From an uncultured Pelagibacteraceae bacterium (GTDB lineage: Bacteria > Pseudomonadota > Alphaproteobacteria > Pelagibacterales > Pelagibacteraceae): 46,049 nt of DNA. Every line of letters begins with the position of its first letter. The stretch's first letter is position 1. Position numbers and translations under genes: made by a program. A model generated the notes under the pieces. It had not been told where the DNA came from, searched no databases, and worked only from the letters and a program-made list of their open reading frames with translations. Of the stretch, positions 28,083 to 45,420 are shown piece by piece. The stretch spans positions 1 through 46,049 of the forward strand of contig CACJYQ010000008.1 of assembly GCA_902597725.1 (NCBI GenBank), in the 5' to 3' direction.

Positions 28083-29417
28083 CTACTGTCCATATAAGAG
28101 AGTTGGTAACCATAAAGCAATTTTGGGAAATATAATTATTAAAATCAAACCAAAAATCTGTAAGACCATAAACTGCATCATTCCATAGTAAATATCCTTT
28201 AAATCCCATTCTGGTACTACTCCTTTTAAAAAATACGCAGATAATGCGACTGGAGGTGAAAGCCAGGCGGTTTGTAAATTTACAGCCACTAGGATAGCAA
28301 ACCAAGTCAAATTAAATCCTAGTGCTTCGATCAATGGTAATATTATTGGAACGATAATCATTACTATAGGTACCCATTCTAACGGCCATCCCAATAAAAA
28401 TATCATTACCATAACCATTGCTAGAATTAGATATTTATTCATTTCAAGACCTAATAAAAATTCAGTTAATAAAGTTGGAGTTCCTAGTCTTGCGAAAACA
28501 GCGCCAAAAAAATTTGAAGCAGCAACTAAAACCATTATCAATGCTGTAATCTCTAGTGTTTTTACTAATGCCTCTTGTAATTTTGGAAGAGTTAATTTTT
28601 TATAAGCTAATGAAAGGATTAAAGCACCCATCGCTCCACATCCTGCAGCTTCAGTTGGTGTTGCAAAACCAAATAAAATACTTCCTAATGCTGCAAATAC
28701 CAAAGCTGCTGGCGGAACTAAACCCAAGAAAAATTCAATCCATACATCTTTCATGCTTGCAGCTCTCATATCTTCAGGTATCACTGGTCCTAATTTTGGA
28801 TTAATCATACATCTGATCGTTGTGTAGCCAGCGTATAAACTTGCAAGTAAAATTCCTGGTATAATTGCAGCAGCAAATAAATCTATTACTGGAATTTCCA
28901 TTATAGGCCCCATTACAACTAACATAATACTTGGCGGAATTAATATTCCTAAAGTTCCTCCAGCTGTAATAGTTCCAGCTGCAAGTCTCACATCATACCC
29001 AGATCTATTCATAGATTTTGCAGCCATAATTCCAAGTATTGTTACAGAGGCACCAACAATTCCTGTTGCAGCAGCAAATATTACAGAGACAAATAAAACT
29101 GCATAATATAAAGATCCTTTAACTTTTGCTAACATCATTTGGAACGCTGAAAATAATCTTTCCATTAATCCAGCTTGTTCCATCATAATTCCCATAAATA
29201 CAAAGAGTGGGACGGCGGCAAGTGTCTGCTCCGTCATTACCATAGAAAATTGGAGTGTCATTAAATAAAAAACTAGCTTTCCAAATCCTAAATAACCAAA
29301 TACGAAACCTAAGAAAATTAATGTAAATGAAATCGGGAAACCTACAAATATTGCAAATAGCATTACGCCAACAAGAATAAAACCTAAGATGGCTGGGTCT
29401 ATAAACTCAGCAATCAT
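28083..29417 (-). CDS. dctM: TRAP transporter large permease subunit (DctM family)
   Basis: A 444 aa polytopic membrane protein of the TRAP large-subunit family. Recognisable stretches are VGFPISFTLIFLGFVFGYLG, FVFMGIMMEQAGLMERL and GTLGILIPPSIMLVVMGP. It shares 4 nt with dctQ (ATGA). Together with an unusually long DctQ and a 364 aa binding protein it resembles the TAXI-independent TakP/mannitol-chloroaromatic subgroup, which includes 2-oxoacid and sulfonate importers. Confidence 0.94.
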   Translation of the reverse strand: MIAEFIDPAILGFILVGVMLFAIFVGFPISFTLIFLGFVFGYLGFGKLVFYLMTLQFSMVMTEQTLAAVPLFVFMGIMMEQAGLMERLFSAFQMMLAKVKGSLYYAVLFVSVIFAAATGIVGASVTILGIMAAKSMNRSGYDVRLAAGTITAGGTLGILIPPSIMLVVMGPIMEIPVIDLFAAAIIPGILLASLYAGYTTIRCMINPKLGPVIPEDMRAASMKDVWIEFFLGLVPPAALVFAALGSILFGFATPTEAAGCGAMGALILSLAYKKLTLPKLQEALVKTLEITALIMVLVAASNFFGAVFARLGTPTLLTEFLLGLEMNKYLILAMVMVMIFLLGWPLEWVPIVMIIVPIILPLIEALGFNLTWFAILVAVNLQTAWLSPPVALSAYFLKGVVPEWDLKDIYYGMMQFMVLQIFGLILIIIFPKIALWLPTLLYGQ

Positions 29418-30028
29418 TTAGTCTCTCCAGGCCACTCACCTTTTTTTGCTGCCCAATAACTTTTAAGTAACTCAGAAACTCCTTGAACTAGTAAAAATAT
29501 TATACCAACAAGTAAGCAAGTTTTGATTGGCCACATGTAAGGCATCCATGTGGTATCCATACCTCTTTCACCTCTTTGAATTGATTCTCCAACAAATCCG
29601 ATAGTCATATAAAGAAAAACAATTAAACCTGGAAAATAAAATAATAAATATAACCAAAAATCTATTAAACCTTGATTTTTAGTTTTAAAATTTCTGTATA
29701 AAAAATCTGCTCTTATATGGACTCCTCTAGAAAGAGCATAACCAGCACCCAACATAAAAAGTGCTCCATATAAAAAACGACTTATGTCGTAAGCCCAAAT
29801 TGTTGGTGCTAAAAATAATTTTCTTGCAAGAACTTCATAAGTCATTGCAAAAATTAATGGTATCAATATCCAACAAACTATATTACCAATTAATTTACTG
29901 AATCTATCAATACTTGTAATAGATTTAGCCATCCAGAATGGCATATCGTCAGGCATTTTTCCCAAACCGCCTCGTCTTTCGGCAATCATTTCATCTGATA
30001 TATCTAGTTTATCTGGTTCTTCTGCCAT
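29414..30028 (-). CDS. dctQ: TRAP transporter small permease subunit (DctQ family, long form)
   Basis: A 204 aa membrane protein with four main hydrophobic helices after a 30-residue charged N-terminus (MAEEPDKLDISDEMIAERRG). The motif YEVLARKLFLAPTIWAYDIS (near residue 64) is the DctQ signature. The long charged N-terminus is common in the TakP-type TRAP systems. No clear ribosome-binding site precedes it, and a terminator-like hairpin lies 20 nt upstream. Confidence 0.92.
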   Translation of the reverse strand: MAEEPDKLDISDEMIAERRGGLGKMPDDMPFWMAKSITSIDRFSKLIGNIVCWILIPLIFAMTYEVLARKLFLAPTIWAYDISRFLYGALFMLGAGYALSRGVHIRADFLYRNFKTKNQGLIDFWLYLLFYFPGLIVFLYMTIGFVGESIQRGERGMDTTWMPYMWPIKTCLLVGIIFLLVQGVSELLKSYWAAKKGEWPGETK

Positions 30029-30048
30029 AATATTTATGTATAAAAAAC

Positions 30049-30075
30049 TAGAGCGGACTTTAAAAGTCCGCTCTA
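30049..30075 (-). terminator. Intrinsic-terminator-like hairpin between dctP and dctQ
   Basis: In the transcript TAGAGCGGACTTT pairs with AAAGTCCGCTCTA in a 10-13 bp stem with a tiny loop, followed by GTTTTTTA. It lies 23 nt after the dctP stop and inside the operon. It therefore probably acts as a partial terminator that makes binding-protein mRNA more abundant than permease mRNA. Confidence 0.75.
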
Positions 30076-30098
30076 ATTAAATCAAGATTAATTACTGA

Positions 30099-31193
30099 TT
30101 ACTTTAATGTTGCTGCGTGTGCCATTCCTAGCTTCGCATTAGACATTTGAGCACCACTCCAGAATGGAACAGCAATATCAGCAAATTCTTTCATCGAATT
30201 ATAAACTTCGTTGAAGAATTTATTTTCTTTAGCATTCTTATTTAAAGAAGCTTTTGCTGCAGCCATATACTCTGTGAAATAATCTGAAGGTGTATCTTCT
30301 AAAATTACTCCATGTTTAGTAGTAAGCTCTTGTAAAGCTTTTCCGTTCTCATAGATTCTGTAACTTAAAGATTTTGCTAATGATGCATTAGCAGCTACTT
30401 CAAGTGACTTTTTCTCATGAGCAGTCATAGCATTGTAAGTTTTTCCAGTAATATAAAAGTCAGCATTTACGACTACTTGGTGTAAACCTTGTAAGTAGTA
30501 GTGCTTTAATACTTTTTGGAAACCAAATGTTAAATCTGGTTTTGGACAACACCATTCAGCAGCATCGATAGTTCCTGCTTCAAGAGCTGGCAAAATATCT
30601 CCACCACCCATTGCAACAGATGCTATACCAATGTCTTTGTAAGTTTGTCCTGGAATTCCTGGAGGAGTTCTGAACTTATATTTTCTAAAGTCAGCCATAT
30701 CTTTAATTGGTTTTGGAAACCAACCTAGAGCTTCTGGGCCAACTGGTTGAATCATAAATCCTTTTATGTCTCTTCCCATTTCTTTCCAAAGTTGGTCGTA
30801 TAACTCTTTACCACCACCGTATTGGAACCATGATAAGAACGCTATATTGTCAATACCAACTCCACCACCAGCTACCGGTGACCCGAATAACATAGCAGCA
30901 GGATGATCACCTGACCAATAATGTGTCCAAGCAAATCCGCAATCAATTAAACCCTTATCTACAGCATCTAGAGTTTCTTTAACTCCAACAACCGCACCAG
31001 CAGGTAAAATTTCAAACTTTAAAGAACCACTTGTTAAAGTTGTTACTGTGTCAGTAAAGTCTTTTAACATTTTGACCTCATCAGCCTTAGTGTTAAGTAC
31101 TGTCTGACATTTTAGTGTCTTTGCAGCGTTAGCATTTGATACGAAACCAAGTACTAAAACAGATGCAAATAACATTGAAATGATTTTTTTCAT
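30099..31193 (-). CDS. dctP: TRAP transporter periplasmic solute-binding protein (TakP-like)
   Basis: A 364 aa exported binding protein with a signal peptide (MKKIISMLFASVLVLGFVSNANA). The region KFRTPPGIPGQTYKDIG holds the conserved Arg that binds an acid group. GTIDAAEWCCPKPDLTFGF and VLKHYYLQGLHQ match the TakP-type (2-oxoacid, mannitol/chloroaromatic) subfamily. Tandem Cys in EWCC is notable. A strong Shine-Dalgarno AGAAGG stands 7 nt before the ATG, and an 18 nt palindrome lies just upstream of it. The gene is divergent from the GMC oxidoreductase. An organosulfonate or oxoacid ligand is an inference. Confidence 0.92.
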   Translation of the reverse strand: MKKIISMLFASVLVLGFVSNANAAKTLKCQTVLNTKADEVKMLKDFTDTVTTLTSGSLKFEILPAGAVVGVKETLDAVDKGLIDCGFAWTHYWSGDHPAAMLFGSPVAGGGVGIDNIAFLSWFQYGGGKELYDQLWKEMGRDIKGFMIQPVGPEALGWFPKPIKDMADFRKYKFRTPPGIPGQTYKDIGIASVAMGGGDILPALEAGTIDAAEWCCPKPDLTFGFQKVLKHYYLQGLHQVVVNADFYITGKTYNAMTAHEKKSLEVAANASLAKSLSYRIYENGKALQELTTKHGVILEDTPSDYFTEYMAAAKASLNKNAKENKFFNEVYNSMKEFADIAVPFWSGAQMSNAKLGMAHAATLK

Positions 31194-31208
31194 TATTTTT
31201 CCTTCTCG

Positions 31209-31226
31209 TTAGTTAAATTTAACTAA
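31209..31226. promoter_or_regulatory. Perfect 18 nt palindrome upstream of second TRAP operon
   Basis: TTAGTTAAATTTAACTAA reads identically on both strands. It sits 15 nt from the dctP ATG, immediately upstream of its Shine-Dalgarno, in the 133 nt divergent spacer to the GMC gene. It could be an operator or form a hairpin in the dctP leader. The length and position argue against chance, though the spacer is AT-rich. Confidence 0.5.
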
Positions 31227-31326
31227 TATATACAATCAGAAAAACAAACCTCACACAAGTGACAATTGATTAATATGAGTGTAAAGAAGATTAATAAAGA
31301 GATATAAAAAACTTATTCAACTTGTG

Positions 31327-32931
31327 ATGGAAAATTTTGATTTTATAATTATTGGTGCCGGGTCTGCTGGATGTGTTCTTGCAAATAGACTTTCGGAGAA
31401 TCCAAAAAATAAAGTTTTGTTAATTGAGGCCGGAGGAAAAGATAACTATCCCTGGATACATATACCAGTTGGTTATTTTAAAACGATGCATAATCCCTCT
31501 GTTGATTGGTGTTACAAAACTGAACCTGATGAGACAATGAATAATCGTTCAATTCGTTATCCTAGAGGAAAAACTTTAGGAGGAAGCTCTGCTATTAATG
31601 GTTTACTATATATTAGAGGTCAAAGTAGAGATTATGATGTTTGGCGTCAATTAGGTAATACTGGTTGGGGTTGGGATGATGTTCTTCCTTACTTTATCAA
31701 AGCTGAGGATCAAGAACGTGGAAAAGATGACTATCATGGTGTTGGCGGTCCTTTATCTGTATCAGATCAAAGAATTCAGTTACCACTTTTGAATGAATTT
31801 CAGAATGCTGCTGAGGAATTTGGTATTCCAAAAACTAAGGATTTCAATACTGGTGACAATCATGGTTGTGGATATTTTCAAGTAACCGAAAAAGATGGAT
31901 TTAGGTGTAGTACTGCAGTTGGATATTTAAACCCAATTAAAAATAGAAAAAATTTAAAGATCATTACTCATGCTCATGTAAAAAAAATAAATTTCGAAAA
32001 TAAAACTGCTAAAAATATTGAGTATTGGCAAGAAAATGTTCTAAAAAAGGTTACAGCTAATAAAGAAATAATACTCTCATCTGGGTCAATTGGATCACCT
32101 CAAATTTTGCAAACTTCCGGGATAGGTAATTCAGAAAAATTAAAACACCTAGGTGTGACTATGGTGCATGAACTAATGGGAGTTGGAGAAAATTTACAAG
32201 ATCATTTAATGTTCAGACCAATTTACAAAGTTAATGGGCTTAAATCATTAAATAAAAAAGTTAATAGTTTGTTTGGAAAATTAATGATTGGTCTAGAATA
32301 TGTTTTTAATAGGAGTGGACCAATGACAATGGGTGCTAGTCAAATGTGTATGTTTGCTAAGAGTGATCCATCTTTAGAATTACCAGATCTGCAATGGCAC
32401 GTGCAACCGATGAGTATGGACACCTTGGGTGCTACAAAAAACCATGACTTTCACGCATTCACACCCACTGTATCAAATATCAGACCAACAAGTAGAGGCC
32501 ATGTCAACATAATTAATAAAGACTCAAGAATTTATGCAAAAGTAAAACTCAACTATCTTTCAACTGATCACGATCGTATGGTCGCTGCGAAGGGTTTAAA
32601 ACTTACAAGAAAAATAGTAATGGAGTCCGAAACTTTTAAAAAATATAAACCAGAAGAATATAGACCTGGTATTAATATTAATGATGATGAAGAGCTTGTG
32701 AAAGCTGGATCAGATTATGCGCAAACTATTTTTCATCCAGTTGGTACATGTAAAATGGGACAAGACGATATGGCGGTAGTCGATGAAACTCTTAAAGTAA
32801 AGGGGTTAAATAATTTGAGGGTAATTGATGCATCAATAATGCCTAATATAACTTCGGGTAATACAAATGCACCCACAATAATGATTGCCGAAAAAGGTGC
32901 TGATATGATACTTAGAAGTAATGTTCACTGA
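31327..32931 (+). CDS. GMC-family FAD-dependent oxidoreductase (choline/isethionate dehydrogenase-like)
   Basis: A 534 aa FAD alcohol dehydrogenase of the glucose-methanol-choline family. The N-terminal dinucleotide motif is IIGAGSAGCVLANRLSENP and the second GMC signature is GSIGSPQILQTSGIG. The catalytic His is in FHPVGTCKMG near residue 470, with the partner Asn in GNTNAPT near residue 514. The ATG at 31327 is chosen over a GTG one codon upstream. Automatic annotation would say choline dehydrogenase. Divergence from a TRAP operon and the nearby xsc gene also allow isethionate dehydrogenase (IseJ), an enzyme of the same family. It overlaps the terC-like gene by 11 nt. Confidence 0.88.
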   Translation: MENFDFIIIGAGSAGCVLANRLSENPKNKVLLIEAGGKDNYPWIHIPVGYFKTMHNPSVDWCYKTEPDETMNNRSIRYPRGKTLGGSSAINGLLYIRGQSRDYDVWRQLGNTGWGWDDVLPYFIKAEDQERGKDDYHGVGGPLSVSDQRIQLPLLNEFQNAAEEFGIPKTKDFNTGDNHGCGYFQVTEKDGFRCSTAVGYLNPIKNRKNLKIITHAHVKKINFENKTAKNIEYWQENVLKKVTANKEIILSSGSIGSPQILQTSGIGNSEKLKHLGVTMVHELMGVGENLQDHLMFRPIYKVNGLKSLNKKVNSLFGKLMIGLEYVFNRSGPMTMGASQMCMFAKSDPSLELPDLQWHVQPMSMDTLGATKNHDFHAFTPTVSNIRPTSRGHVNIINKDSRIYAKVKLNYLSTDHDRMVAAKGLKLTRKIVMESETFKKYKPEEYRPGININDDEELVKAGSDYAQTIFHPVGTCKMGQDDMAVVDETLKVKGLNNLRVIDASIMPNITSGNTNAPTIMIAEKGADMILRSNVH

Positions 32932-33514
32932 TTTAATTACTCCAGAACAAATTACAATTTTAACACAAATCATCTTAATTGATCTTGTATTAGCAGGTGA
33001 CAATGCAATCATAATTGGAATGGTAGCATCAAAATTTCCTTTAGAACAAAGACGAAAAATTATTTTTTGGGGAATAGGTGGTGCAGTTATCTTAAGAATA
33101 ATCTTAACTTTATTGACTGCTTATTTATTACAAATTACAGGTTTAAGATTAATTGGAGGTGTTCTTCTTCTCTATATTGTCTACAAACTTTATGTAGATG
33201 TCATAAAAGGTTCTGATCACGGAAGTGATATAAAGGTAGATAATTCCAGTTTCCTAAAAGCTATTTGGACAATCTTATTAGCTGATTTTACTATGAGTTT
33301 AGATAATGTATTAGGAGTTGCTGGAGCAGCAGGAGACCATTACTATTTATTAATTTTTGGTCTTGTTTTATCAATTGTACTAATGGCAACAGCTGCAACA
33401 TTAATATCTAATTGGATAAAGAAATATAAATGGATTGCTTGGGCTGGATTATTGGCAATTTTAATTGTTGCTATTAAATTGATTTATACTGATATTAAAA
33501 TATTATTTTTATGA
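32921..33514 (+). CDS. TerC family integral membrane protein
   Basis: A 197 aa membrane protein with about seven hydrophobic helices. The two conserved acidic motifs of the TerC family, LVLAGDNAIIIG (near residue 22) and ADFTMSLDNVLGVAGAA (near residue 120), are present. The short form without CBS domains corresponds to the YjbE-type group, proposed to move manganese or other metals and to aid metal loading of exported proteins. It overlaps the GMC gene by 11 nt and the SDR by 4 nt, implying translational coupling. The functional link to the operon is unclear. Confidence 0.88.
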   Translation: MFTDLITPEQITILTQIILIDLVLAGDNAIIIGMVASKFPLEQRRKIIFWGIGGAVILRIILTLLTAYLLQITGLRLIGGVLLLYIVYKLYVDVIKGSDHGSDIKVDNSSFLKAIWTILLADFTMSLDNVLGVAGAAGDHYYLLIFGLVLSIVLMATAATLISNWIKKYKWIAWAGLLAILIVAIKLIYTDIKILFL

Positions 33515-34281
33515 TGTATCTGAAAAACTACAATTTAAAGAACAAAACCGCAGTTGTAACTGGGGCTGGAAAAGGACTTGGTAGAGCATGTGCAATAGCG
33601 CTGGCTGAGGCTGGTGCGAATTTGATAATAATAAGTAGAACAAAAAAAGATTTGGATGAGGTTTCAAAAAAGATAAAAAAAATAAAATCTAAATGTAAAT
33701 CTTATGTGTGTGACATCACAAATTACAATCAAATTAAAGAGATAATTAATAAGCAGTCAAAAATAGACATACTGATTAACAATGCAGGCAATAATATTCC
33801 AGAACATTTTACAAAAGTTAAAACAAAAAATATGGAGTATTTGGTTAAGATAAACACGATGGCAACTTTTAATCTTGCTCAATTATGTGCTTTAAAAATG
33901 ATTAAGTTCAAAAATAGAAAAAAAATTGGTGGTTCGATTGTAAATATGTCCTCTCAAATGGGTCATGTTGGGGGTCCTATTAGAAGTGTGTATAATATGA
34001 CAAAATTTGGCTTAGAAGGCTTAACTAAAGGAATGTCGATTGATCTAGCTAAATATAATATAAGGGTAAATACTGTTTGCCCAACTTTTGTTGTTACTCC
34101 AATGACAAGTAAATTTTTAAAAAGTAAAAAATTTAAAAAAGAAGTTTTGGGAAATATTCCCTTAGGAAAATTTGCTGAACTTTCAGATGTAGCAAGCGCA
34201 GCTGTATTTCTTGCATCTGATGCAGCGTCAATGATTACTGGAACTTCTTTATTAGTTGATGGTGGATGGACTGCAAAATAA
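33511..34281 (+). CDS. Short-chain dehydrogenase/reductase (SDR)
   Basis: A 256 aa classical SDR. The cofactor motif is TGAGKGLG (about residues 18-25). After beta-2 the sequence reads IIISRTKKD, with Arg suggesting NADP(H). NNAGNN is near residue 92, the catalytic Ser is in NMSSQMG, and the Tyr/Lys is in VYNMTKFG near residue 162. The C-terminus LLVDGGWTAK is typical. It differs from the NAD-type SDR at 25843-26595. It sits between the TerC and M23 genes with overlaps at both ends (4 and 16 nt). The substrate is unknown. Confidence 0.88.
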   Translation: MMYLKNYNLKNKTAVVTGAGKGLGRACAIALAEAGANLIIISRTKKDLDEVSKKIKKIKSKCKSYVCDITNYNQIKEIINKQSKIDILINNAGNNIPEHFTKVKTKNMEYLVKINTMATFNLAQLCALKMIKFKNRKKIGGSIVNMSSQMGHVGGPIRSVYNMTKFGLEGLTKGMSIDLAKYNIRVNTVCPTFVVTPMTSKFLKSKKFKKEVLGNIPLGKFAELSDVASAAVFLASDAASMITGTSLLVDGGWTAK

Positions 34282-35069: not shown

Positions 35070-35083
35070 CAAAATTTATATAG

Positions 35084-35233
35084 ATGGTGACTAAACTTAA
35101 AAATTTATTATTAAAAAGCCGATGGAGTAAATATATTCTAGTTGGAGGGTTTACTTTTTTTTTAATAAAAGGTTTAGTTTGGTTGATAGTTTTCTTTATA
35201 GCTGGTTTTAGTTTGATAAACTTTGGATCATAA
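35084..35233 (+). CDS. Small single-helix membrane protein, function unknown
   Basis: A 49 aa frame with a basic N-terminus (MVTKLKNLLLKSRWSKY) followed by one long hydrophobic segment (residues 18-45). The layout is positive-inside with a membrane anchor. It lies 14 nt after the M23 gene and 41 nt before the FAH-family gene on the same strand, so it is likely part of the operon. No family is recognised with certainty. Confidence 0.6.
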   Translation: MVTKLKNLLLKSRWSKYILVGGFTFFLIKGLVWLIVFFIAGFSLINFGS

Positions 35234-35274
35234 AATATAATTTATCAAAAAAATTAAAAAGATAATTTAAATAT

Positions 35275-36045: not shown

Positions 36046-36048
36046 AAA

Positions 36049-36171
36049 ATGAAAACATTAATATTATTATCTTTAGCAATTGTTATTGCTTGGGTTTTGT
36101 TCAGGCCAATAACAAAAAAAGAGTTAGACAGATATAATGATAAAGATAACTGGCCTTTGGATCTACATTAA
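36049..36171 (+). CDS. Small membrane-anchored protein, hypothetical
   Basis: A 40 aa frame: an N-terminal hydrophobic anchor (MKTLILLSLAIVIAWVLF) and a polar, mostly charged tail (KKELDRYNDKDNW). It begins 3 nt after the FAH-family gene and its stop overlaps the convergent xsc stop by 4 nt. The tight packing favours a real gene. Function unknown. Confidence 0.5.
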   Translation: MKTLILLSLAIVIAWVLFRPITKKELDRYNDKDNWPLDLH

Positions 36172-37952
36172 GAATTCAAAGAGGGCTGCTTTTTCATATC
36201 TTCTTTTTTAATTCCAGCAACTTTTACAGGTGCTTTCATCGCGTCTCTTCTGAATGGTTCACCTAATTCTTGATTAAGTATTACTTCAATAAATGTTGTA
36301 ATGCCTTTTTTTTGATCCTCACAGGATTTTTTGATTGCCGCAGTTGTCTCTTCCATAGTTTTAACAGTCACACCTTTTAAACCACATGCATTAGCTACTT
36401 TTGCATAACTTAAATTAGGATCTAATTCAGTTCCTATAAAATTGTTATCATACCACAGGGTGGTGTTTCTTTTTTCTGCTCCCCATTGATAATTTCTAAA
36501 AATAACCATAGTGATTGCTGGCCACTCCTTACGAGCACAAGAACTCATCTCGTTCATACTAATTCCGAATGCTCCATCTCCCGCAAAACCAATCACAGGT
36601 GTATCGGGACATCCAATCTTTGCTCCAAGTATTGATGGGAAACCATAACCACAAGGACCAAACAAACCTGGTGCTAAATATTTTCTTGGCTTTTCAAAAG
36701 TTGGATAAGCATTTCCAATTGCACAATTATTTCCAATATCACTTGAGATAATTACATCTTCAGGCATTCCAGCTTGAATTGCTCTCCAAGCCTGTCTTGG
36801 CGACATTCTATCTTTATCCCTCTCTCTTGCTTCTTTATTCCAAACTGTTCCCTTATCATCATCTTCATGATCTAAACTAGATAATTTTTGTAACCATGCA
36901 GATTTTGTTTGATGAATTAAGTCTTTTCTTTTTTGTCTATCTGCATCACCTGCATTAGATGATAATTTATCAAATATTTGTTGAGCAACTAATTTTGCAT
37001 CTCCACTTATTCCAACAGTAACTTTTTTAGTTAGACCAATTCTATCAGGGTTGATGTCTACTTGGATGATGCTTGCTTTCTTAGGCCAATAATCAATGCC
37101 ATACCCTGGAAGTGTTGAAAATGGATTTAGTCTTGTACCTAAAGCCAAAACAACATCTGCTTTTGAAATTAATTCCATCGCGGCTTTTGACCCATTATAT
37201 CCCAAAGGTCCTACAGCTAATTGATGGCTCCCTGGAAAACTATCATTGTGTTGATAACCAGAACAAACTGGTGAGTCTAATTTTTCTGCAAGTTTTTTTG
37301 TTTCTTCAATTGCACCACCAATTACAACTCCTGCACCAGATAAAATAACTGGAAACTTTGCATTTGATAAAAGTTTTGCAGCTTTATCTATTGCCTCTGC
37401 TCCTCCACCTTGTCTTTCTAATCTTACTATTGGTGGTAATTCAATATCGATAACTTGTGTCCAATAATCTCTTGGAACATTAATTTGAGCTGGCGCTGAG
37501 CCTCTTATTGCTTTTTCAATTACTCTATTTAAAACTTCAGCCATTCTTGATGGGTCTCTAACCTCCTCTTGGTAACAAACCATATCTTTAAATAAGTTCA
37601 TTTGCTCTACTTCTTGAAAACCTCCTTGGCCCATAGTTTTATTTGCTGCCTGAGGGGTCACTAATAATAATGGTGTATGATTCCAGTAAGCAGTTTTAAT
37701 TGGGGTTACTAATCCAGTGATACCAGGTCCGTTTTGTGCAATAACCATAGACATTTTACCTGTGGACCTTGTATAACCATCAGCGATTAGTCCACCATTT
37801 GTCTCATGAGCAACGTCCCAAAAAGTAATACCAGCATCTGGAAAAATATCAGAGATGGGCATGAATGCTGAACCTATTATTCCAAAAGCATGTTCAATGC
37901 CGTGCATTTGTAAAACTTTTACAAAAGCTTCTTCTGTTGTCATTTTTGTCAT
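36168..37952 (-). CDS. xsc: Sulfoacetaldehyde acetyltransferase
   Basis: A 594 aa thiamine-diphosphate enzyme that converts sulfoacetaldehyde plus phosphate to acetyl phosphate and sulfite, the desulfonation step for taurine and isethionate. The N-terminal HGIEHAFGIIGSAFMPISD and DVAHETNGGLIADGY (with the ThDP-activating Glu) and the C-terminal metal/ThDP motif GDGAFGISMNEM (near residue 460) are typical of Xsc. This separates it from acetolactate synthase, which has different N-terminal sequences. A Shine-Dalgarno AAAGG lies 8-9 nt before the ATG. It is divergent from suyAB. No phosphotransacetylase is present in the window. Confidence 0.93.
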   Translation of the reverse strand: MTKMTTEEAFVKVLQMHGIEHAFGIIGSAFMPISDIFPDAGITFWDVAHETNGGLIADGYTRSTGKMSMVIAQNGPGITGLVTPIKTAYWNHTPLLLVTPQAANKTMGQGGFQEVEQMNLFKDMVCYQEEVRDPSRMAEVLNRVIEKAIRGSAPAQINVPRDYWTQVIDIELPPIVRLERQGGGAEAIDKAAKLLSNAKFPVILSGAGVVIGGAIEETKKLAEKLDSPVCSGYQHNDSFPGSHQLAVGPLGYNGSKAAMELISKADVVLALGTRLNPFSTLPGYGIDYWPKKASIIQVDINPDRIGLTKKVTVGISGDAKLVAQQIFDKLSSNAGDADRQKRKDLIHQTKSAWLQKLSSLDHEDDDKGTVWNKEARERDKDRMSPRQAWRAIQAGMPEDVIISSDIGNNCAIGNAYPTFEKPRKYLAPGLFGPCGYGFPSILGAKIGCPDTPVIGFAGDGAFGISMNEMSSCARKEWPAITMVIFRNYQWGAEKRNTTLWYDNNFIGTELDPNLSYAKVANACGLKGVTVKTMEETTAAIKKSCEDQKKGITTFIEVILNQELGEPFRRDAMKAPVKVAGIKKEDMKKQPSLNS

Positions 37953-38068
37953 TAGTAGAACCTTTCTAATCTAGCAAATGTAATAATTTTTTATAAAACT
38001 ATTTCTTAATTGTCGCGATTAATATATAAGATTTTTGAAAATTCAAACAAACAAATCGACACGATATA

Positions 38069-38353
38069 ATGGCTACTGACATCATAATTCACGATAAAAA
38101 GGATAATGTAGGGGTTGTAGTAACCGAAAAAATAACGCCAAAACAAGACTGTAAATGCTGGATTATGGAAGATGATAGCTCAACAGATATTCAATCAATG
38201 GATGAAATACCTTTGGGTCATAAAATTGCTATGACGGACTTAAAAGAGGGAGACACAATTTTAAAATATGGTCACGACATAGGAAAAGTTGTTAAATCCA
38301 TAAAAAAAGGTGAACATGTACATGTTCATAACGTCAAAACGAAAAAGTGGTAA
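38069..38353 (+). CDS. suyA: (2R)-sulfolactate sulfo-lyase small subunit (SAF domain)
   Basis: A 94 aa SAF-domain protein, the small subunit of the enzyme that splits 3-sulfolactate into pyruvate and sulfite. Sequence landmarks are [22 protein letters not shown] (mid-protein) and [14 protein letters not shown] at the end, where the His residues form part of the metal site. Related SAF subunits belong to altronate or galactarate dehydratases. The sulfolactate role rests on the partner SuyB, divergent xsc and the sulfite-handling genes that follow. No Shine-Dalgarno is seen before the ATG. Confidence 0.85.
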
Positions 38354-38357
38354 ATTG

Positions 38358-39524
38358 ATGGAAATCCCAAAAAGTTTTTTAGGTTACAAAAGAGAAAATG
38401 GAAGAGCGGGGACTAGAAATCACGTAATTATTTTACCAGTAGATGATATTTCAAATGCTTGCGCAGAGGCAGTCGCAAACAATATAAAAGGAACTATCGC
38501 ATTACCTCATTCATATGGACGATTACAGTTTGGAGCAGATTTAGAATTACACTTTAGAACAATGATAGGCACTGGAAGTAACCCAAATGTTGCTGCGGTG
38601 ATTGTAATAGGTATTGAGCCAAAGTGGACTAAAAGAATTGTAGATGGAATAGCAAAAACTGGAAAACCTGTGGAAGGTTTTCATATTGAACGAACAGGTG
38701 ATATTGGAACTGTTATGAAAGCATCCAAAAAAGCACAAGAATTTGTCATGTGGGCTTCAGAAAAACAAAGAGAGGAATGTCCGATAAGTGATTTATGGAT
38801 TTCAGTAAAATGTGGAGAGTCAGATACTACTTCAGGTCTTGCGTCAAATCCTACAGTTGGAAACTTAATGGATAAACTTGAACCACTTGGTGTTCATCTA
38901 TGTTTTGGTGAAACTTCAGAGCTCACCGGAGCTGAAAAAGTTTGTGCAAATAGAGGCGCTACAAAAGAAGCTTCAGATAAATTTATGAAAACTTGGAGCG
39001 CATATAATGACTTTATCTTAAAAGAGGCAACAGATGATCTTTCAGAGAGTCAGCCAACTGCTGGAAACATTGCTGGAGGCTTAACAACTATTGAAGAAAA
39101 AGCATTTGGAAATTTTCAAAAAATTGGTGATTGCAAATTTATAGATGTTTTAGAACCAGCCGAAGAACCAAAAAAAGGTAAAGGATTATACTTTATGGAT
39201 ACTTCTTCAGCTGCAGCAGAGTGTGTAACACTACAAGCAGCAGCAGGATTTAATATTCATCTGTTTCCAACTGGGCAAGGTAATATTGTTGGAAATCCAA
39301 TTGAGCCAGTCGTTAAATTAACTGCTAATCCATTGACTGTTAAAAGTATGGGTGAACATATTGATTGCGATGTATCAAAAATTCTTTCAAGAGAAATGAA
39401 TTTATCAGAGGCAGGAGATAAACTTATTGAAACAACTATTAGAGTTGCTAATGGAAGATTAACTTGTGCAGAAGCTTTGGGTCATAAAGAATTTGTTATG
39501 ACCAAACTTTATAGAAGCGCATAA
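38358..39524 (+). CDS. suyB: (2R)-sulfolactate sulfo-lyase large subunit (UxaA family)
   Basis: A 388 aa protein of the UxaA/GarD dehydratase family. [20 protein letters not shown] at the start is the typical N-terminus. [17 protein letters not shown] near residue 155 and the C-terminal [18 protein letters not shown] are also conserved. The ATG at 38358, 4 nt after suyA, is preferred over an in-frame upstream ATG at 38310 that overlaps suyA by 44 nt. The product pair releases sulfite from sulfolactate. Altronate dehydratase is the main alternative, but the context has no uronate genes. Confidence 0.86.
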
Positions 39525-39537
39525 TCACTTTATAAGA

Positions 39538-40605
39538 ATGCTCTTAAAAGATTACTTGGTGTTAATACCAGGTATAATACTTGCATTTATTCTTTATTCT
39601 CTTTCTCAAGGTTTTAATAATATTATTGGTATTGAACTTTTAGGATATAGCAAAAGTCCAATCTCTACAGCGATGATAGCTATTCTACTAGGAATTTTTT
39701 TTGGAAATTTTTTTAAAATTCGAGAAAGTTTTCAAAAAGGATTAGATTTTAGTCGAGACTATATTTTAAAACTTGGAATAATTTGTCTAGGTATACAATT
39801 AAAACCCTTTGAATTTTTAGAATTTGGAAAAATAGCAATTCCATTAATAGTAATCTGTATTGTCAGTGTCTTAATTGTAATAAAGCTAATAATTAAAAAA
39901 CTACAAATACCAACAAGGATGGCCTACTTAATATCAATCGGTAGCACTGTTTGTGGTACTACAGCCATAATGGCAACTGCACCAGTAATAAAAGCTAATA
40001 AAAGTGAAATTTCTTATGCAATTGCTAATATTACTTTATTCGGAATACTCTCGATGTTGTTATACCCTTACTTTGCGAATTTTTATTTTGAAGGAAACTC
40101 ATTATTTGCAGGTCTTTTTTTAGGAACTGCCATACATGAAACCTCACAAGTAGCTGCAGCAGGATTAATATATGATCAGCAGTTCAATAGTCCTGAAACA
40201 TTAAATATCGCAACTGTTACAAAGCTTATAAGAAATACTTTTTTAGTAGTTATGATCCCTCTTTTTGCTTTTCTTTATAATAGAGGTCAAACAAAAGAAA
40301 AGGGTTACTCTATTTTAAGTATATTTCCATATTTTGTTTTGGGGTTTGTTGGGATGATAATTTTAAGAAATGTAGGTGATGAAGTTTTCTCAACTGATAA
40401 TAATTGGATCGAGTTAATAAATACAATTAAATCTTCTTCTAAAATTTTTTTGACTATGGCTATGGCAGCTATAGGCTTATCAACAAATTTAAAAGATATT
40501 AGAAATATGGGTTACAAACCTTTTGTTGTTGGATTTACATCCATGTTGACTGTAGGAATTGTAAGTATATTTTCGATTGAGATCTATATAAAATTTTTTA
40601 TTTAG
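39538..40605 (+). CDS. YeiH/UPF0324-family putative sulfate or sulfite exporter
   Basis: A 355 aa membrane protein with about 10 hydrophobic helices, of the putative sulfate exporter family. Landmarks are LGIICLGIQLKPFEFLEFG, SIGSTVCGTTAIMATAPVIKA and the highly conserved GTAIHETSQVAAAG (near residue 200). Members linked to suyAB are called SuyZ-like. The gene lies 13 nt after suyB and so probably exports the sulfite the lyase releases. It overlaps the convergent TauE-type gene by 8 nt. The exported anion is inferred. Confidence 0.83.
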   Translation: MLLKDYLVLIPGIILAFILYSLSQGFNNIIGIELLGYSKSPISTAMIAILLGIFFGNFFKIRESFQKGLDFSRDYILKLGIICLGIQLKPFEFLEFGKIAIPLIVICIVSVLIVIKLIIKKLQIPTRMAYLISIGSTVCGTTAIMATAPVIKANKSEISYAIANITLFGILSMLLYPYFANFYFEGNSLFAGLFLGTAIHETSQVAAAGLIYDQQFNSPETLNIATVTKLIRNTFLVVMIPLFAFLYNRGQTKEKGYSILSIFPYFVLGFVGMIILRNVGDEVFSTDNNWIELINTIKSSSKIFLTMAMAAIGLSTNLKDIRNMGYKPFVVGFTSMLTVGIVSIFSIEIYIKFFI

Positions 40606-41692
40606 ATTGTTTAACTGTCTTTTTAAAATATTTTGCTCTAAACCTTGAAATTGATCTTCTAATAAATGCAGCACCTATTCCTAAAATAACAGCAAATAAG
40701 ATTGAAAATAATCCATAGAAGAATGGCATATCTTCTGAAAACTCCTTAATAAATTTTGAGAAAAAATTTAATTCTGGTGAACTTATGGATGTAACTCCAT
40801 TCTCAATCTCATCAGCAAAAAAAGTATCATAAGCAATGACAATTCCAACTATTAATAATAAAATTGCTAACAAAGCTTTTAATCCAGAGCTGTCAATCTG
40901 CTCTCCAAGCTTCTGACCTACTTGAACTCCTACTATTGATCCCACAACTAACATTAAAACTAACATTAAATCAATTGACCCATAATTAATTGAATGAAGA
41001 AATGTAACTATCACACTAACAAAAATCGTCACAAACAAGGAAGTCCCAGGCACTAATTTTGTTGGCATCTTAATAATGTAAATCATTGCGGGCACTAAAA
41101 TAAAGGCACCACCGATACCCATAATAGCCGCAATAAAACCAACAATTAATCCAATTACGATAGGTGTAAATATACTTTCATATAATTTGGATTTAGGAAA
41201 TCTCATCCTAAAAGGAAGTCCATGGATCCAATAATGAACATGTAGTTTTTTCTTCTCTACTATATTTTTTTTGGCTTTATCAATTTCGCCTAAACTTTCC
41301 ACTAACATCAAAGTCCCAATTATTGCAAGAATGTACATATAGGCTAAAGATATTACTGTATCTATTTTTCCAATATCTTTAAAATAAGTGAAAGTAAAAA
41401 TACCTAATATAGTTCCTATTGTTCCGCCAATTACAATCATTAATCCCATTTTATAATCTAAAGTATTTTTTAACCAATGAGTGGTAGATCCAGACACAGA
41501 AGTTGCTAAGATATTGTTAGCCTCATTTGCTACAGCATAAGCTGGCGGAACACCCATAAAGATTAAAAATGGTGTCATTAAAAAACCACCCCCTACTCCA
41601 AACAAACCTGAAAGAACACCGACAATGGCACTAAGTAAAAGTATTTCAACTGGATTAATAAAGACTTGGGCTATAGGTAAAAAAACGTCCAT
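40598..41692 (-). CDS. TauE/SafE-family sulfite exporter-like permease
   Basis: A 364 aa membrane protein with an internal duplication. The two halves carry SGLFGVGGGFLMTPFLIFMG (near residue 28) and AAIMGIGGAFILVPAMIYI (near residue 190), separated by a long charged cytoplasmic loop (residues 140-175). The family exports sulfite or sulfoacetate in sulfonate degraders. It is the last gene of the apr operon, downstream of two small unknown genes, and its stop overlaps that of the YeiH-type gene. Two unrelated exporters thus face each other. The substrate is inferred. Confidence 0.85.
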   Translation of the reverse strand: MDVFLPIAQVFINPVEILLLSAIVGVLSGLFGVGGGFLMTPFLIFMGVPPAYAVANEANNILATSVSGSTTHWLKNTLDYKMGLMIVIGGTIGTILGIFTFTYFKDIGKIDTVISLAYMYILAIIGTLMLVESLGEIDKAKKNIVEKKKLHVHYWIHGLPFRMRFPKSKLYESIFTPIVIGLIVGFIAAIMGIGGAFILVPAMIYIIKMPTKLVPGTSLFVTIFVSVIVTFLHSINYGSIDLMLVLMLVVGSIVGVQVGQKLGEQIDSSGLKALLAILLLIVGIVIAYDTFFADEIENGVTSISSPELNFFSKFIKEFSEDMPFFYGLFSILFAVILGIGAAFIRRSISRFRAKYFKKTVKQSK

Positions 41693-41716
41693 TAAATAAA
41701 AAACTTAAAATATTAC

Positions 41717-41851
41717 TTATTTAAAAGTAATAAAAGTTCCAACTAAGATAACACCCCAACATGCAGCTATAGCTGAAAAAATTCCAGTTTTAATAAAAGT
41801 TGATTTTTTATTAGCTATGATATTTAGTATTTTTAAATTTGAAAGATGCAT
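41717..41851 (-). CDS. Small membrane protein of the apr operon, function unknown
   Basis: A 44 aa frame with a polar N-terminus (MHLSNLKILNIIANKKS) and one hydrophobic helix (about residues 19-42) containing a single Cys. It lies 44 nt after the 116 aa gene and 24 nt before the tauE-type gene, all on the minus strand. It appears to be an operon member. No family is recognised. Confidence 0.6.
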   Translation of the reverse strand: MHLSNLKILNIIANKKSTFIKTGIFSAIAACWGVILVGTFITFK

Positions 41852-41895
41852 CTAAATCCCTGAATACACCCAGTAAAAAAATTGTCAAACTATAA

Positions 41896-42246
41896 TTAAT
41901 AGATTGTAGCTCCAAAAATTTTGATCTCATCATCCTCAACCCCAAGTACCAACCTTCCAAGAAACTCCCCAGGTATTTCCTTGTTAGTCTGTTTGATTAA
42001 TACTGTTATGTGCTCACCACGTCTTAAAGTTCCAAAGGGCTTGTAGGTTTCTTCTAGATTTGTGATAATTTTATTGTTTGCCCATTGTTTACCTAACTCA
42101 ACTTCATTTGCTCCAAATAGCATTTGTGTTGAAAAGTCTTTGGTAAAACCTCCATAATCCTTCATATTTGAGGCTCGTACTAGGTTTTCCCACAAGGGTT
42201 TTCCAATTTTAAAAATCTCTTCATCTGACTTTGATAAAAGATCCAT
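41896..42246 (-). CDS. Uncharacterised 116 aa protein between aprA and the exporter
   Basis: A soluble protein without signal peptide or transmembrane helix. The pattern of aromatic and charged residues (PLWENLVRASNMKDYGGF near the N-terminus; GEFLGRLVLGVEDDEIKIFG at the end) suggests a small alpha/beta fold, perhaps NTF2-like, but no family is recognised with certainty. It begins 18 nt after aprA on the same strand. Its position implies a part in APS reductase function or sulfite handling. No cysteine is present, so it is not an Fe-S protein. Confidence 0.8.
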   Translation of the reverse strand: MDLLSKSDEEIFKIGKPLWENLVRASNMKDYGGFTKDFSTQMLFGANEVELGKQWANNKIITNLEETYKPFGTLRRGEHITVLIKQTNKEIPGEFLGRLVLGVEDDEIKIFGATIY

Positions 42247-42264
42247 AAATGTTCTTAAAATAAA

Positions 42265-44124
42265 TTATGAGGCCTTCTTTTTCTCTTTTTCATCAACAAT
42301 GTGATAAACCGGAACTTTTTCTAGAGTAAATTTACCAGTTTTGGGATCTCTTCTTGAAACTGTCAAACAATGCCAATTTTCATCGTCTAATTTCATATGA
42401 TCTCCTCTATAATAATAACCCGGCCAACGAGTTTCCTCCCTAAATAAAGTATGCTCAGTCACACACTGTGATGTCAAAGCTCTATGTTTCAACTCCCAAG
42501 CTCTCATTAACTGATGATAATCTTCCGCACCAACGTGTTCTAAATCCTCTTGTAACCAAGCTAAAAGTTCTAAAGCTTTTTTTAGTAAATTTCCATTGGT
42601 CATATAATTTGAGGTAATACCTCCAACGTATTCATCCATAATCTTTTGAAGTCTTTGTAGTCCTTGTATTGGAGAAATATAACTTGGTGAAACAGTTCCT
42701 CCAGTTATTTCGTTTTGAGCAACTGTGTATGTTTCTAAAGGTTTGTAGACAGCTTTTTTAAAATTATCACATTGTTTATCTGTAACATTTATTCCTTCAG
42801 CTTTTTTATCTTCGATATATTTGACTGCTGCTTTTGCTGCTAATCTACCCTCTGTAAAAGAACCTGATGAAAATTTATGCGCACTGCCACCCACTGTATC
42901 TCCTGCACCAAAAAGTCCATCGATTGTTAACATTCTGTTGTAACCCCAGAAATATTCTGGTGGAGACAAATCTTCAGGTCCACTAACCCATGCTCCTGAA
43001 CATGTTGCATGCGATCCCATAACGTAAGGTTCAGATGTTGTTAACTCAGGATTTGTATACTTTGGATCAATATTTTGTGATGCCCAAACAACAGCTTGTC
43101 CAACTGTCATACCTAAAAAGTTTTCCCATCCAACTGTTTCTAAATGTGGATCTTGAAAAGCCTCTTTAGTAACCATGTGGATCGGTCCACCACCTGCAGC
43201 AACTTCTTGTATAAATGCGTGGTTTCTTAAACAAGTAGGAGTTGGATGATGATCAATATATTCACCAACTAATTCTTTAGTTTGATCATACCATTTTTTT
43301 TCATAATTTTCGCCATTAGCATTTTGTGTATATGTTTTTAAATGTAAAAAATATGCTCCAACAGGTCCATAACCATCTTTAAATCTACACAACACAATTC
43401 TATTTTCCATTTGAGTCATCTTTGCACCTGCAGCAATAGGTAGTGCATATGCAGATCCATTACTCCATGGTGCATACCAAGTTCTTCCCATACCTTCTCC
43501 AACCGCTCTTGGTTTAAAAATATGCGATGCACCGCCTGCAGCGACAATAACTGCTTTAGCTCTAAATACATGAAAATCTCCTGTTCTCATATTAAATCCA
43601 ACAGCTCCACCAATTCTATTTTCTTGAGCTTCATCCATTAATAAATGAGTAACCATTATTCTATTATAAATTTTATCTGCAGATTTTTTTGCTGCCTCAG
43701 CAACGATTGGTTTATAGCTTTCACCATGTATCATGATTTGCCATTTACCTTCCCTTAAGTATCTTCCAGTTTTTTCATTTTTCATCATTGGAAGACCCCA
43801 CTCATCAAACATATGAACAGTTGAGTCTACATGACGAGCCATGTCATAACCTAAATCTTCTCTAACCATTCCCATTAAATCATTTCTGGCATATCTAACA
43901 TGGTCCTCAGGTTGATTTTCATCCCATTGCATACCCATGTAACAATTGATTGCATATAGACCTTGTGCGACTGCACCACTTCGATCAATATTTGCTTTTT
44001 CAACACAAACAATTTTTAAATCTCTTCCCCAATGTCTAGCTTCGAATGTTGCTCCAGTACCAGCCATTCCACCACCAACAACTAATACATCACATTCCTC
44101 ATAATGTGTTTTGTGCTTAGCCAT
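42265..44124 (-). CDS. aprA: Adenylylsulfate (APS) reductase alpha subunit
   Basis: A 619 aa FAD flavoprotein. The N-terminal FAD-binding motif is DVLVVGGGMAGTGATFEARHW. Conserved AprA landmarks are GAVAQGLYAINCYMG, RNDLMGMVREDLG and the C-terminal HCLTVSRRDPKTGKF. The enzyme interconverts APS and sulfite plus AMP. In an aerobic marine bacterium with sulfonate desulfonases it most likely oxidises sulfite. The start ATG shares a base with the aprB stop. No ATP sulfurylase or dissimilatory sulfite reductase is in the window. Confidence 0.96.
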   Translation of the reverse strand: MAKHKTHYEECDVLVVGGGMAGTGATFEARHWGRDLKIVCVEKANIDRSGAVAQGLYAINCYMGMQWDENQPEDHVRYARNDLMGMVREDLGYDMARHVDSTVHMFDEWGLPMMKNEKTGRYLREGKWQIMIHGESYKPIVAEAAKKSADKIYNRIMVTHLLMDEAQENRIGGAVGFNMRTGDFHVFRAKAVIVAAGGASHIFKPRAVGEGMGRTWYAPWSNGSAYALPIAAGAKMTQMENRIVLCRFKDGYGPVGAYFLHLKTYTQNANGENYEKKWYDQTKELVGEYIDHHPTPTCLRNHAFIQEVAAGGGPIHMVTKEAFQDPHLETVGWENFLGMTVGQAVVWASQNIDPKYTNPELTTSEPYVMGSHATCSGAWVSGPEDLSPPEYFWGYNRMLTIDGLFGAGDTVGGSAHKFSSGSFTEGRLAAKAAVKYIEDKKAEGINVTDKQCDNFKKAVYKPLETYTVAQNEITGGTVSPSYISPIQGLQRLQKIMDEYVGGITSNYMTNGNLLKKALELLAWLQEDLEHVGAEDYHQLMRAWELKHRALTSQCVTEHTLFREETRWPGYYYRGDHMKLDDENWHCLTVSRRDPKTGKFTLEKVPVYHIVDEKEKKKAS

Positions 44125-44594
44125 TAATAATAAACACCTTTTTTAAAAGATTCTTTTGGAACTGATGGTAATTCTTTATTAGTATTTAAACCCTCTGGCT
44201 CACTATATAATCTTTGTGAATTAATTTCTCCTTGGTTAGGAGTGTCACCTTCAGCAAGTTTAGGAATAAATTTACCCCAAGGTTTAGTTGTTATTGGAGA
44301 TACGAAATTTTTTTCTGTTCCATTTCTAAATTTGATTTTCCAAGAGATAGTTCCTTTTTCTTCTTCTCTTCTTACTCTCACACTGTGACCCATAGGAGCA
44401 AAATCAGCATACCCTCTTACATCAATTGCATGATTAGGACATGCTTTAACGCATGAGTAACATTCCCAACAAAAATTTGGTTCAATGTTTTTTGCTCTTC
44501 GAATATTTTCATCTATGTGCATGATGTCCGAAGGACATATATCTACACAATGTCCACAACCATCACATCTTGTCATATATACAAAAGTTGACAT
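44124..44594 (-). CDS. aprB: Adenylylsulfate (APS) reductase beta subunit (2x 4Fe-4S)
   Basis: A 156 aa electron-transfer subunit. The two ferredoxin motifs are CDGCGHCVDICPSDIM (residues 10-25) and CWECYSCVKACPNHAID (near residue 42), each completing a 4Fe-4S cluster. It passes electrons between AprA and the membrane. A Shine-Dalgarno AGGAG lies 11 nt before the ATG, and 31 nt separate it from aprM upstream. The identification is secure. Confidence 0.97.
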   Translation of the reverse strand: MSTFVYMTRCDGCGHCVDICPSDIMHIDENIRRAKNIEPNFCWECYSCVKACPNHAIDVRGYADFAPMGHSVRVRREEEKGTISWKIKFRNGTEKNFVSPITTKPWGKFIPKLAEGDTPNQGEINSQRLYSEPEGLNTNKELPSVPKESFKKGVYY

Positions 44595-44625
44595 AATTTA
44601 TTTTTCTCCTTTTTTTAATAACATA

Positions 44626-45420
44626 TTAATAGTGTTTTGGCTCTTCTCTTTTTATACCTAAGCCAAATTGCTCAGGGGCATCTGCTGGTGGAGGAAGATT
44701 GTCTCTTGAACCATCAGCTTCAGCTAGATTTTTTTGTATTGCTGCTCCAGGTTTGTAGAACATATGGGCAAATTTAGACCAATAAACACCACCAAATAAA
44801 ATTAAATTTGATGAAACAAATAAAGTTAAAAACAAATATGATAATCCCATTTGTCCGTTAAATTGAGTGTAAGACCATGCTAACCCAAAAGTTGAACATG
44901 CAAGTAAAGCTAAAACAAATAAATCAGCTTTAATGATTCTATACCAAGGATGAGCTTCCGCTGATACGTCTACTCTTAAAAAAAACCAAAACCAATACCC
45001 GCCCAAGCAAGTTAATATTGCTCCTGCATGCCAAATAAACGACCAAGTTTGAGAAGTTGGTTTATCAGTACCTGTGTAACAAAAAACTAAAACAGCTGAA
45101 GACACCCAAAATAAAATTGTCCCGTACATTCCTAGAACATGGGCCAGTCTTCTTTTACCAAAACCTAATTCAGAGGTGGTGCCAATATCAACAACTGTTG
45201 TTTTAGCAATCACGGAAACTTTTTCTCCAACACCTAGTTCTTTTGTCGCTGATAGTTTTGCTTTTTTTGCGTTATTAAAAAAATAAGTCAGATTTTTATG
45301 GTGTATCATTTGAATAATAGTTCCAACTGCAATCAACAAAACCATTGCAACAATAAAAGATTGCATAGCAAACGGTGAAATGGTTTCTGATAAAATTGAA
45401 AATGGATTGTTGCTTAACAT
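44626..45420 (-). CDS. aprM: AprM, membrane protein associated with APS reductase
   Basis: A 264 aa membrane protein with about six hydrophobic helices, first gene of the aprM-aprB-aprA operon. Order and size match AprM, the proposed membrane anchor and quinone link that replaces QmoABC in some sulfur oxidisers and SAR11. Helix-borne His residues (e.g. FIWHAG near residue 134) could bind haem. The C-terminus is rich in Pro and Glu. A Shine-Dalgarno AAGGCGG sits just before the ATG. The role in electron transfer is inferred from operon context. Confidence 0.88.
   Translation of the reverse strand: MLSNNPFSILSETISPFAMQSFIVAMVLLIAVGTIIQMIHHKNLTYFFNNAKKAKLSATKELGVGEKVSVIAKTTVVDIGTTSELGFGKRRLAHVLGMYGTILFWVSSAVLVFCYTGTDKPTSQTWSFIWHAGAILTCLGGYWFWFFLRVDVSAEAHPWYRIIKADLFVLALLACSTFGLAWSYTQFNGQMGLSYLFLTLFVSSNLILFGGVYWSKFAHMFYKPGAAIQKNLAEADGSRDNLPPPADAPEQFGLGIKREEPKHY

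Follow-up and report, generated by a model that had tools for sequence, protein, structure and literature searches.

The gene block described here lies on a 46,049-nucleotide contig (C8; CACJYQ010000008.1, assembly GCA_902597725.1) of an uncultured Pelagibacteraceae (SAR11) bacterium. The whole contig is referred to below as the window; the genome amounts to 820 kb in 39 contigs and is 75% complete. The block joins genes for two predicted sulfite-releasing desulfonases, Xsc and SuyAB, with putative sulfite exporters, the adenosine 5'-phosphosulfate (APS) reductase genes aprMBA and a gene for a small HIT-family protein. Published work is cited here from excerpts of the papers, and statements about these papers hold for those excerpts.

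The closest described enzyme system is that of Allochromatium vinosum, which combines AprMBA with ATP sulfurylase, Sat (PMC8232776). AprB, AprA, AprM and a sulfite oxidation through APS are common to both. The SAR11 system differs in that 237 of 247 genomes are without a Sat match, in that a HIT or nucleotidyltransferase gene precedes aprM, and in that the sulfite would come from desulfonases. The taurine dissimilation of 'Ca. Taurinisymbion ianthellae' resembles the SAR11 proposal in that Xsc-derived sulfite is oxidised via APS (PMC10356861). However, the symbiont uses Qmo and Sat, whereas SAR11 has AprM, is without Sat, and carries suyAB within the block. A third comparison is offered by a plasmid of Azospirillum sp. 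TSH58 (L190), where xsc adjoins a trio of molybdopterin oxidoreductase, 4Fe-4S and DmsC-type genes, with a sulfate-exporter gene ~6 kb further on. Like the SAR11 block, this stretch brings together a desulfonase, a likely sulfite oxidation and a YeiH-type exporter. Judging from its three annotations, the trio is probably SoeABC, which would mean direct molybdenum-dependent oxidation instead of Apr.

For SAR11 itself, aprAB, suyAB and xsc have been named together in organosulfur catabolism (PMC12636525), and sulfite detoxification has been suggested for its Apr (PMC5069961); both the genes and the idea of sulfite removal recur in our locus. Hence, the core function, disposal of sulfonate-derived sulfite by Apr in SAR11, is already proposed in print. 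SAR11 peptides of Tpa, Xsc and AprAB were detected in Antarctic waters, the majority of SAR11 lack ATP sulfurylase, and sulfate excretion on taurine is said to await demonstration in culture (PMC10356861). SAR11 enzymes also act on dihydroxypropanesulfonate, a source of sulfolactate (PMC11131964). The excerpts of PMC12636525 and PMC5069961 make no mention of a physical cluster, of the HIT gene or of the small gene orf116, and we found no description of a physical xsc-suyAB-apr cluster in the excerpted literature on SAR11 sulfonate catabolism.

A conserved neighbourhood of desulfonase, exporter and Apr genes

In SAR11, the genes for the desulfonases, the putative exporters and Apr are neighbours in a strongly conserved arrangement. 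Among 247 Pelagibacteraceae genomes, drawn without selection by xsc, 138 carry xsc, 136 carry aprA and 128 carry both. The two genes share a contig in 124 of these 128 genomes, the other four pairs being split across contigs, and they share a strand in 123 of the 124. No more than 10 kb separates them in 120 of the 124 genomes (median gap 3470 nt); in G008, G170, G074 and G131 the distance is 15 to 26 kb. The conserved neighbourhood on which a first-pass annotation of the window, made from the sequence alone, had staked its reading is thus present in relatives.

A second set shows which genes accompany xsc. It holds the best 80 loci from an Xsc scan of named-species genomes, each with an Xsc identity of at least 90%; it is therefore chosen by xsc, and many of its loci end early at contig boundaries, which affects the counts of neighbours. 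All 80 loci have suyA and suyB, followed in frequency by tauE (76), orf116 (74), aprA (74), aprB (68), aprM (68), HIT (55), the GMC oxidoreductase gene (49), the YeiH-type gene (48), dctP (43) and a hydratase-like gene (18). In a third collection, in which some genomes were entered twice from two sources, suyB accompanies xsc in 111 of 114 xsc loci, and orf116 is present with aprA in 109 of 111 aprA loci, following aprA even where tauE is missing.

In the window, the block consists of the following features:

36168-37952, minus strand: xsc, predicted sulfoacetaldehyde acetyltransferase, releasing sulfite and acetyl phosphate (TIGR03457, 967 bits, cut-off 676)
37953-38068, no strand: divergent xsc-suyA spacer of 116 nt; its AT-rich element is also seen in many relatives
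38069-38353, plus strand: suyA, predicted small subunit of sulfolactate sulfo-lyase (weak N-terminal TIGR03248 match, 41 bits)
38358-39524, plus strand: suyB, predicted large subunit of sulfolactate sulfo-lyase (PF20629, PF04295; ATG start likely)
39538-40605, plus strand: YeiH-type putative exporter, accessory (PF03601, 233 bits; TIGR00698, 158 bits, under its cut-off of 232.6)
40598-41692, minus strand: tauE, TauE/SafE-type putative sulfite exporter (PF01925, 158.6 bits)
41896-42246, minus strand: orf116, 116 codons, Apr-linked small protein (no Pfam or NCBIfam family; predicted NTF2/cystatin-like fold)
42265-44124, minus strand: aprA, APS reductase alpha subunit (TIGR02061, 989 bits, above cut-off)
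44124-44594, minus strand: aprB, APS reductase beta subunit (TIGR02060, 188 bits, above cut-off)
44626-45420, minus strand: aprM, putative membrane anchor of APS reductase (position; SAR11 AprM profile)
45521-45919, minus strand: HIT-family protein of 132 amino acids, candidate APS hydrolase or phosphorylase (PF01230, 58.7 bits; motif HCHFHLIP)

Beyond suyAB the order is thus YeiH-type (+), tauE (-), orf116 (-), aprA, aprB and aprM (-), and HIT (-). Open reading frame and family scans recovered all genes named in the first-pass annotation at or very near the positions it had given, and xsc and suyAB do diverge from the 116-nt spacer, as it had stated. Two conserved genes come in addition to its list, orf116 and the HIT gene, the latter beyond the end of the region it had delimited.

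The small SuyA and the large SuyB of the galactarate/altronate dehydratase superfamily are both present, and no SuyAB-specific model matched either protein. Because its profile match is weak, suyA is identified by its place before suyB, and from the family we expect SuyAB to act on sulfolactate. The most likely start of suyB is the ATG at 38358, 4 nt past suyA; the list of open reading frames had a GTG at 38310. AprM has no Pfam match and only a weak QmoC match. It is identified by its position and by the SAR11 AprM profile, which also matches the gene preceding aprB in 16 of 20 apr loci from other alphaproteobacterial families.

The AT-rich element of the spacer (GATTAATATATAAGAT...TTCAAACAAACAAATCGACAC), which may serve as a promoter or operator, is repeated in many of 67 distinct aligned spacers, though those of genera g3 and g4 do not show it in this form.

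The two exporters that had been proposed for the block are not of equal standing. TauE is found in nearly all of the 80 loci, whereas the YeiH-type gene is an optional, accessory member. In many loci hardly any sequence separates suyB from tauE; some lineages have YeiH, HIT or other genes in this place. The suyB-tauE slot of genus g3 loci (L074, L092, L098, L100 and others) holds a gene of ~305 codons resembling homocysteine S-methyltransferase, for which a PF02574 match was obtained in L101. Some lineages have, between suyB and either tauE or orf116 and on the strand of apr, a small gene for a monohaem cytochrome-c-like protein that may carry electrons; it is present in L101 (8815-9120, with a PF13442 match), L074, L098, L100 and L076. 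The C-terminus of the window's TauE has a weak match to Alph_Pro_TM (PF09608, 22.8 bits, under the cut-off of 24.5).

From this gene content, we consider it likely that SAR11 uses this conserved block both to produce sulfite and to dispose of it. The activities are predicted from the genes; the gene set and its synteny, as well as the near-absence of Sat and the linkage of HIT described below, are observed. Xsc would cleave sulfoacetaldehyde and SuyAB would cleave 3-sulfolactate, both freeing sulfite in the cytoplasm. TauE, and YeiH where present, would export sulfite or sulfate, as expected of their families. AprBA with AprM would combine sulfite with AMP to form APS and pass two electrons to the membrane pool, as has been published as a hypothesis. 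Of the parts expected for this AMP-dependent oxidation, AprA, AprB and the membrane partner AprM are in place, and a Sat to release sulfate from APS was not found. For other routes of sulfite oxidation, the PF00174 sulfite oxidase family gave no match in the window's own genome and was positive in 3 of 31 relatives. PF00384 matched in 27 of the 31, mostly in frames of NuoG-like size; no SoeABC-specific search was made.

Near-absence of ATP sulfurylase and linkage of a HIT gene

The first-pass annotation had cast Apr as an energy-yielding or detoxifying sink for sulfonate-derived sulfite. Its detoxifying half is sound, though already in print for SAR11. A gain of ATP through Sat is unlikely, because ATP sulfurylase, scored as a PF01747 match, was found neither in the window's genome (75% complete) nor in 237 of the 247 family genomes; APAT and CysDN were not searched. 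In a class-wide sample of 385 alphaproteobacterial genomes, aprA occurs in 23, of which 20 lie outside Pelagibacteraceae. Sat is present in 19 of these 20 genomes, and 15 of the 20 have sat within ~3 kb of apr. SAR11 is therefore unusual in having Apr without Sat, and APS must be removed by another route.

The rare SAR11 sat genes do not appear to be a part of the sulfite sink. Of the ten genomes with a PF01747 match, G174 was inspected closely and G166 (L084) partly. In G174, and only there of the two, a sat gene and an APS kinase gene (PF01583) adjoin each other a few kb from xsc (L105:14379-15945), which suggests synthesis of 3'-phosphoadenosine 5'-phosphosulfate. As a separate observation, G563 (L180), an alphaproteobacterium of another family, has aprMBA, no ATP sulfurylase in the genome, and no HIT match nearby.

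The HIT gene of the window lies 100 nt before aprM. Its protein belongs to the HIT superfamily, with a PF01230 score above cut-off, the HxHxH motif and relatives in the PDB. With this protein as query and a threshold of 90 bits, HIT was found in 89 of 136 family genomes with aprA versus 0 of 111 without aprA, 23 of the latter being at least 90% complete. The next matches drop to 37 bits and were taken as general HIT paralogues. In 87 of the 89 genomes the gene is linked, that is, within 8 kb of aprA. Elsewhere in the class it is rare, with 4 of 189 other genomes matching at E 1e-15.

The position of HIT varies within the cluster. It lies 5' of aprM in the window's genus and after suyB in genera g3 and g4, where the two genes share 1 nt in 10 of 11 such loci (L074 and L102 look like one genome); this overlap speaks in favour of HIT being co-translated with the sulfolactate lyase. 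In a 63-row tree with few, long-branched outgroups, the HIT proteins from the two positions are sister clades (95/80), which fits one gain of HIT and one move inside the cluster; separate recruitment to the two positions is unsupported. The genes of G482, which belongs to a different family, run sat, aprB, aprA, a CxxCxxCC gene, HIT and xsc, followed on the opposite strand by pta and a GMC gene.

HIT proteins that cleave APS by hydrolysis or phosphorolysis are described from eukaryotes, for Fhit in PMC7072326 and PMC8704414 and, according to titles cited in these papers, for Hint4 and DcpS. These proteins share the HIT family with the SAR11 protein, but they are eukaryotic and have no link to APS reductase. 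Among the matches listed in the open-access literature, no paper treats HIT proteins and APS reductase jointly. By analogy with these enzymes, and given the linkage, we tentatively propose that the SAR11 HIT protein replaces ATP sulfurylase, freeing sulfate from APS with AMP (hydrolysis) or ADP (phosphorolysis) as the second product, and that its gene changed places between the apr and suyAB operons without leaving the cluster. With such a step, AMP would be recycled and sulfite would be burnt to sulfate with a gain of electrons, in the absence of ATP made by Sat. We regard this proposal as possible but doubtful.

Several observations weigh against it. HIT is not obligatory, since 47 of the 136 genomes with aprA are without it and two carry it unlinked. 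Nor is there a clean swap of enzymes, as five of seven genomes with both aprA and an ATP sulfurylase match keep HIT (four linked, one elsewhere). Outside SAR11, among apr loci from 19 of the 20 genomes with aprA, HIT is near apr in only one, and there sat is present; the Sat-less G563 has no HIT match in the stretch around its apr genes. In 44 of the 45 loci listed for the window's genus, a PabC-like gene stands -4 to 9 nt from HIT, compared to ~102 nt between HIT and aprM in 66 loci, so that HIT may belong to a para-aminobenzoate (PABA) operon; in L048 a pabA-type glutamine amidotransferase gene precedes the PabC-like gene. Plasmid relatives of HIT, in four annotated regions, lie beside HNH endonuclease, transposase or unrelated genes, with no sulfur genes; a fifth region carries no annotation. 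Finally, the contrast of 89 to 0 does not reflect independent events, as it is inflated by kinship and by missing contigs that remove linked genes together. It is because of the HIT-less genomes, the genomes with both Sat and HIT, the packing with PabC, the plasmid contexts and the kinship that our proposal remains tentative.

Rival accounts of APS removal and of the locus

An alternative explanation might be that APS is removed by general enzymes and that Apr scavenges sulfite, while HIT hydrolyses adenylates or dinucleotides in general and, in the window's genus, goes with the neighbouring PABA genes. The abutting PabC-like (Aminotran_4) gene, the HIT-less third of the genomes with aprA (47 of 136) and the plasmid relatives without sulfur context are all as this account would have it. 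Yet in other SAR11 genera HIT overlaps suyB with no PabC-like neighbour, in G482 it stands between apr and xsc with no PabC-like gene adjoining, and none of the 111 family genomes without aprA carries it. We consider this account a serious candidate, although somewhat short of probable.

The genes before apr differ among genera. The order is pabA-like, pabC-like and HIT in the window's genus, and a CADD-family gene with a small nucleotidyltransferase gene in others. The CADD family serves PABA synthesis in some bacteria. Two unrelated kinds of PABA-type gene thus occupy one position before apr (loci L003-L124).

A second alternative concerns the block as a whole and brings in the genes to the left of xsc:

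28083-31193, minus strand: TRAP transporter genes dctM, dctQ and dctP (PF06808, PF04290, PF03480)
31324-32931, plus strand: GMC oxidoreductase gene (PF00732, PF05199; choline-dehydrogenase-like)

From left to right the order is dctMQP (-), GMC (+), terC (+), SDR (+), M23 peptidase (+), hydratase-like (+), xsc (-) and suyAB (+). According to this alternative, the TRAP transporter and the GMC enzyme are IseKLM and IseJ, which would make this an isethionate locus in its entirety, Xsc being the desulfonase. In its favour, R. pomeroyi has iseM, iseL, iseK and iseJ at SPO2356-2359 (PMC4334477), and G482 has near xsc a GMC gene that is 44% identical to that of the window. However, the nearest solved structures of DctP are ketoacid-, sorbitol/mannitol- and lactate-type binders (the IseK sequence was not compared). 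The GMC protein has choline dehydrogenase as its nearest solved structure and shows 53-55% identity with ten listed plasmid enzymes (IseJ was not compared), and the terC, SDR, M23 and hydratase-like genes stand between GMC and xsc. We therefore consider an isethionate locus unlikely. For the same reasons, the importer and oxidase roles in sulfonate use that the first-pass annotation had given to TRAP and GMC are not borne out. Both are frequent neighbours of the block, and a sulfonate role for them is unsupported though possible. Even in close relatives, the identity of GMC to the window's protein falls into distinct bands (~97-98, 82-95 and 61-73%), suggesting that the gene was replaced or recombined.

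Thirdly, a small HxGH nucleotidyltransferase of ~126 amino acids, which in some cases adjoins or is fused with an APS-kinase-like P-loop domain, might handle APS in HIT-less SAR11 as an alternative to HIT. Its gene sits before aprM in many HIT-less loci and lies within 8 kb of aprA in at least 36 of the 47 HIT-less genomes with aprA, compared to 17 of the 87 with linked HIT. In the other HIT-less genomes it is elsewhere (7, the position in G207 not being listed) or missing (4). Moreover, a fusion protein of 258 amino acids in L097 matches PF01583 at E 2e-9, although AAA_33 scores higher. Conversely, the nucleotidyltransferase also occurs in 33 of 111 genomes without aprA and, unlinked, in 62 of the 87 with linked HIT; its best named matches are a phage kinase family and nicotinamide mononucleotide (NMN) adenylyltransferases; 9 nt separate it from a preceding CADD-family gene in L052; its structure model is poor (predicted local distance difference test, pLDDT, 58.7); and its pattern tracks genus and may be one event. 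Because it is common outside genomes with aprA and resembles NMN adenylyltransferases, we claim no role for it and consider this account improbable. The idea that it is a minimal ATP sulfurylase is weak as well, in view of a PF01747 match under cut-off (E 0.023), the NMN adenylyltransferase matches and the poor model. Fusions of the P-loop domain with the nucleotidyltransferase occur at L097:11275-12051 (-) and L087:4471-5247, with a match to the phage family phrog_10255.

A reductive Apr that supplies sulfite would fit the bidirectional nature of the enzyme (PMC5069961), but is highly improbable in a cluster with two sulfite-releasing enzymes and an exporter, in a family where 237 of 247 genomes show no ATP sulfurylase for making APS (CysDN was not searched).

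The orf116 protein and significance for SAR11

The orf116 gene follows aprA beyond SAR11 as well, as a homologue 45% identical to it does so in a non-SAR11 genome (L161). Its protein has no Pfam or NCBIfam family and no sequence match in the PDB. The AlphaFold model has a pLDDT of 81.8, with one weak stretch at residues 33-38. Its best structural match, VIA, has a Z of 8.0 over 97 residues with a root-mean-square deviation of 3.0, and no Foldseek match was obtained at E 0.001. The model resembles an NTF2/cystatin-like fold, a likeness that may be just a common arrangement. We infer that orf116 is a candidate accessory protein of Apr.

SAR11 bacteria are very abundant heterotrophs of the ocean, where sulfonates from phytoplankton are major currencies. 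Their sulfur metabolism holds an uneasy pair of observations, in that SAR11 expresses Xsc and AprAB, yet most SAR11 are without ATP sulfurylase (PMC10356861). The lack of Sat combined with a linked HIT gene is the new point of our analysis, and it is directly testable. If HIT does not cleave APS, SAR11 more likely exports sulfite or handles APS by a yet unrecognised route. If it does, Sat is not needed to complete the pathway, and the sulfur of sulfonates would be fully oxidised to sulfate in SAR11, with a gain of electrons.

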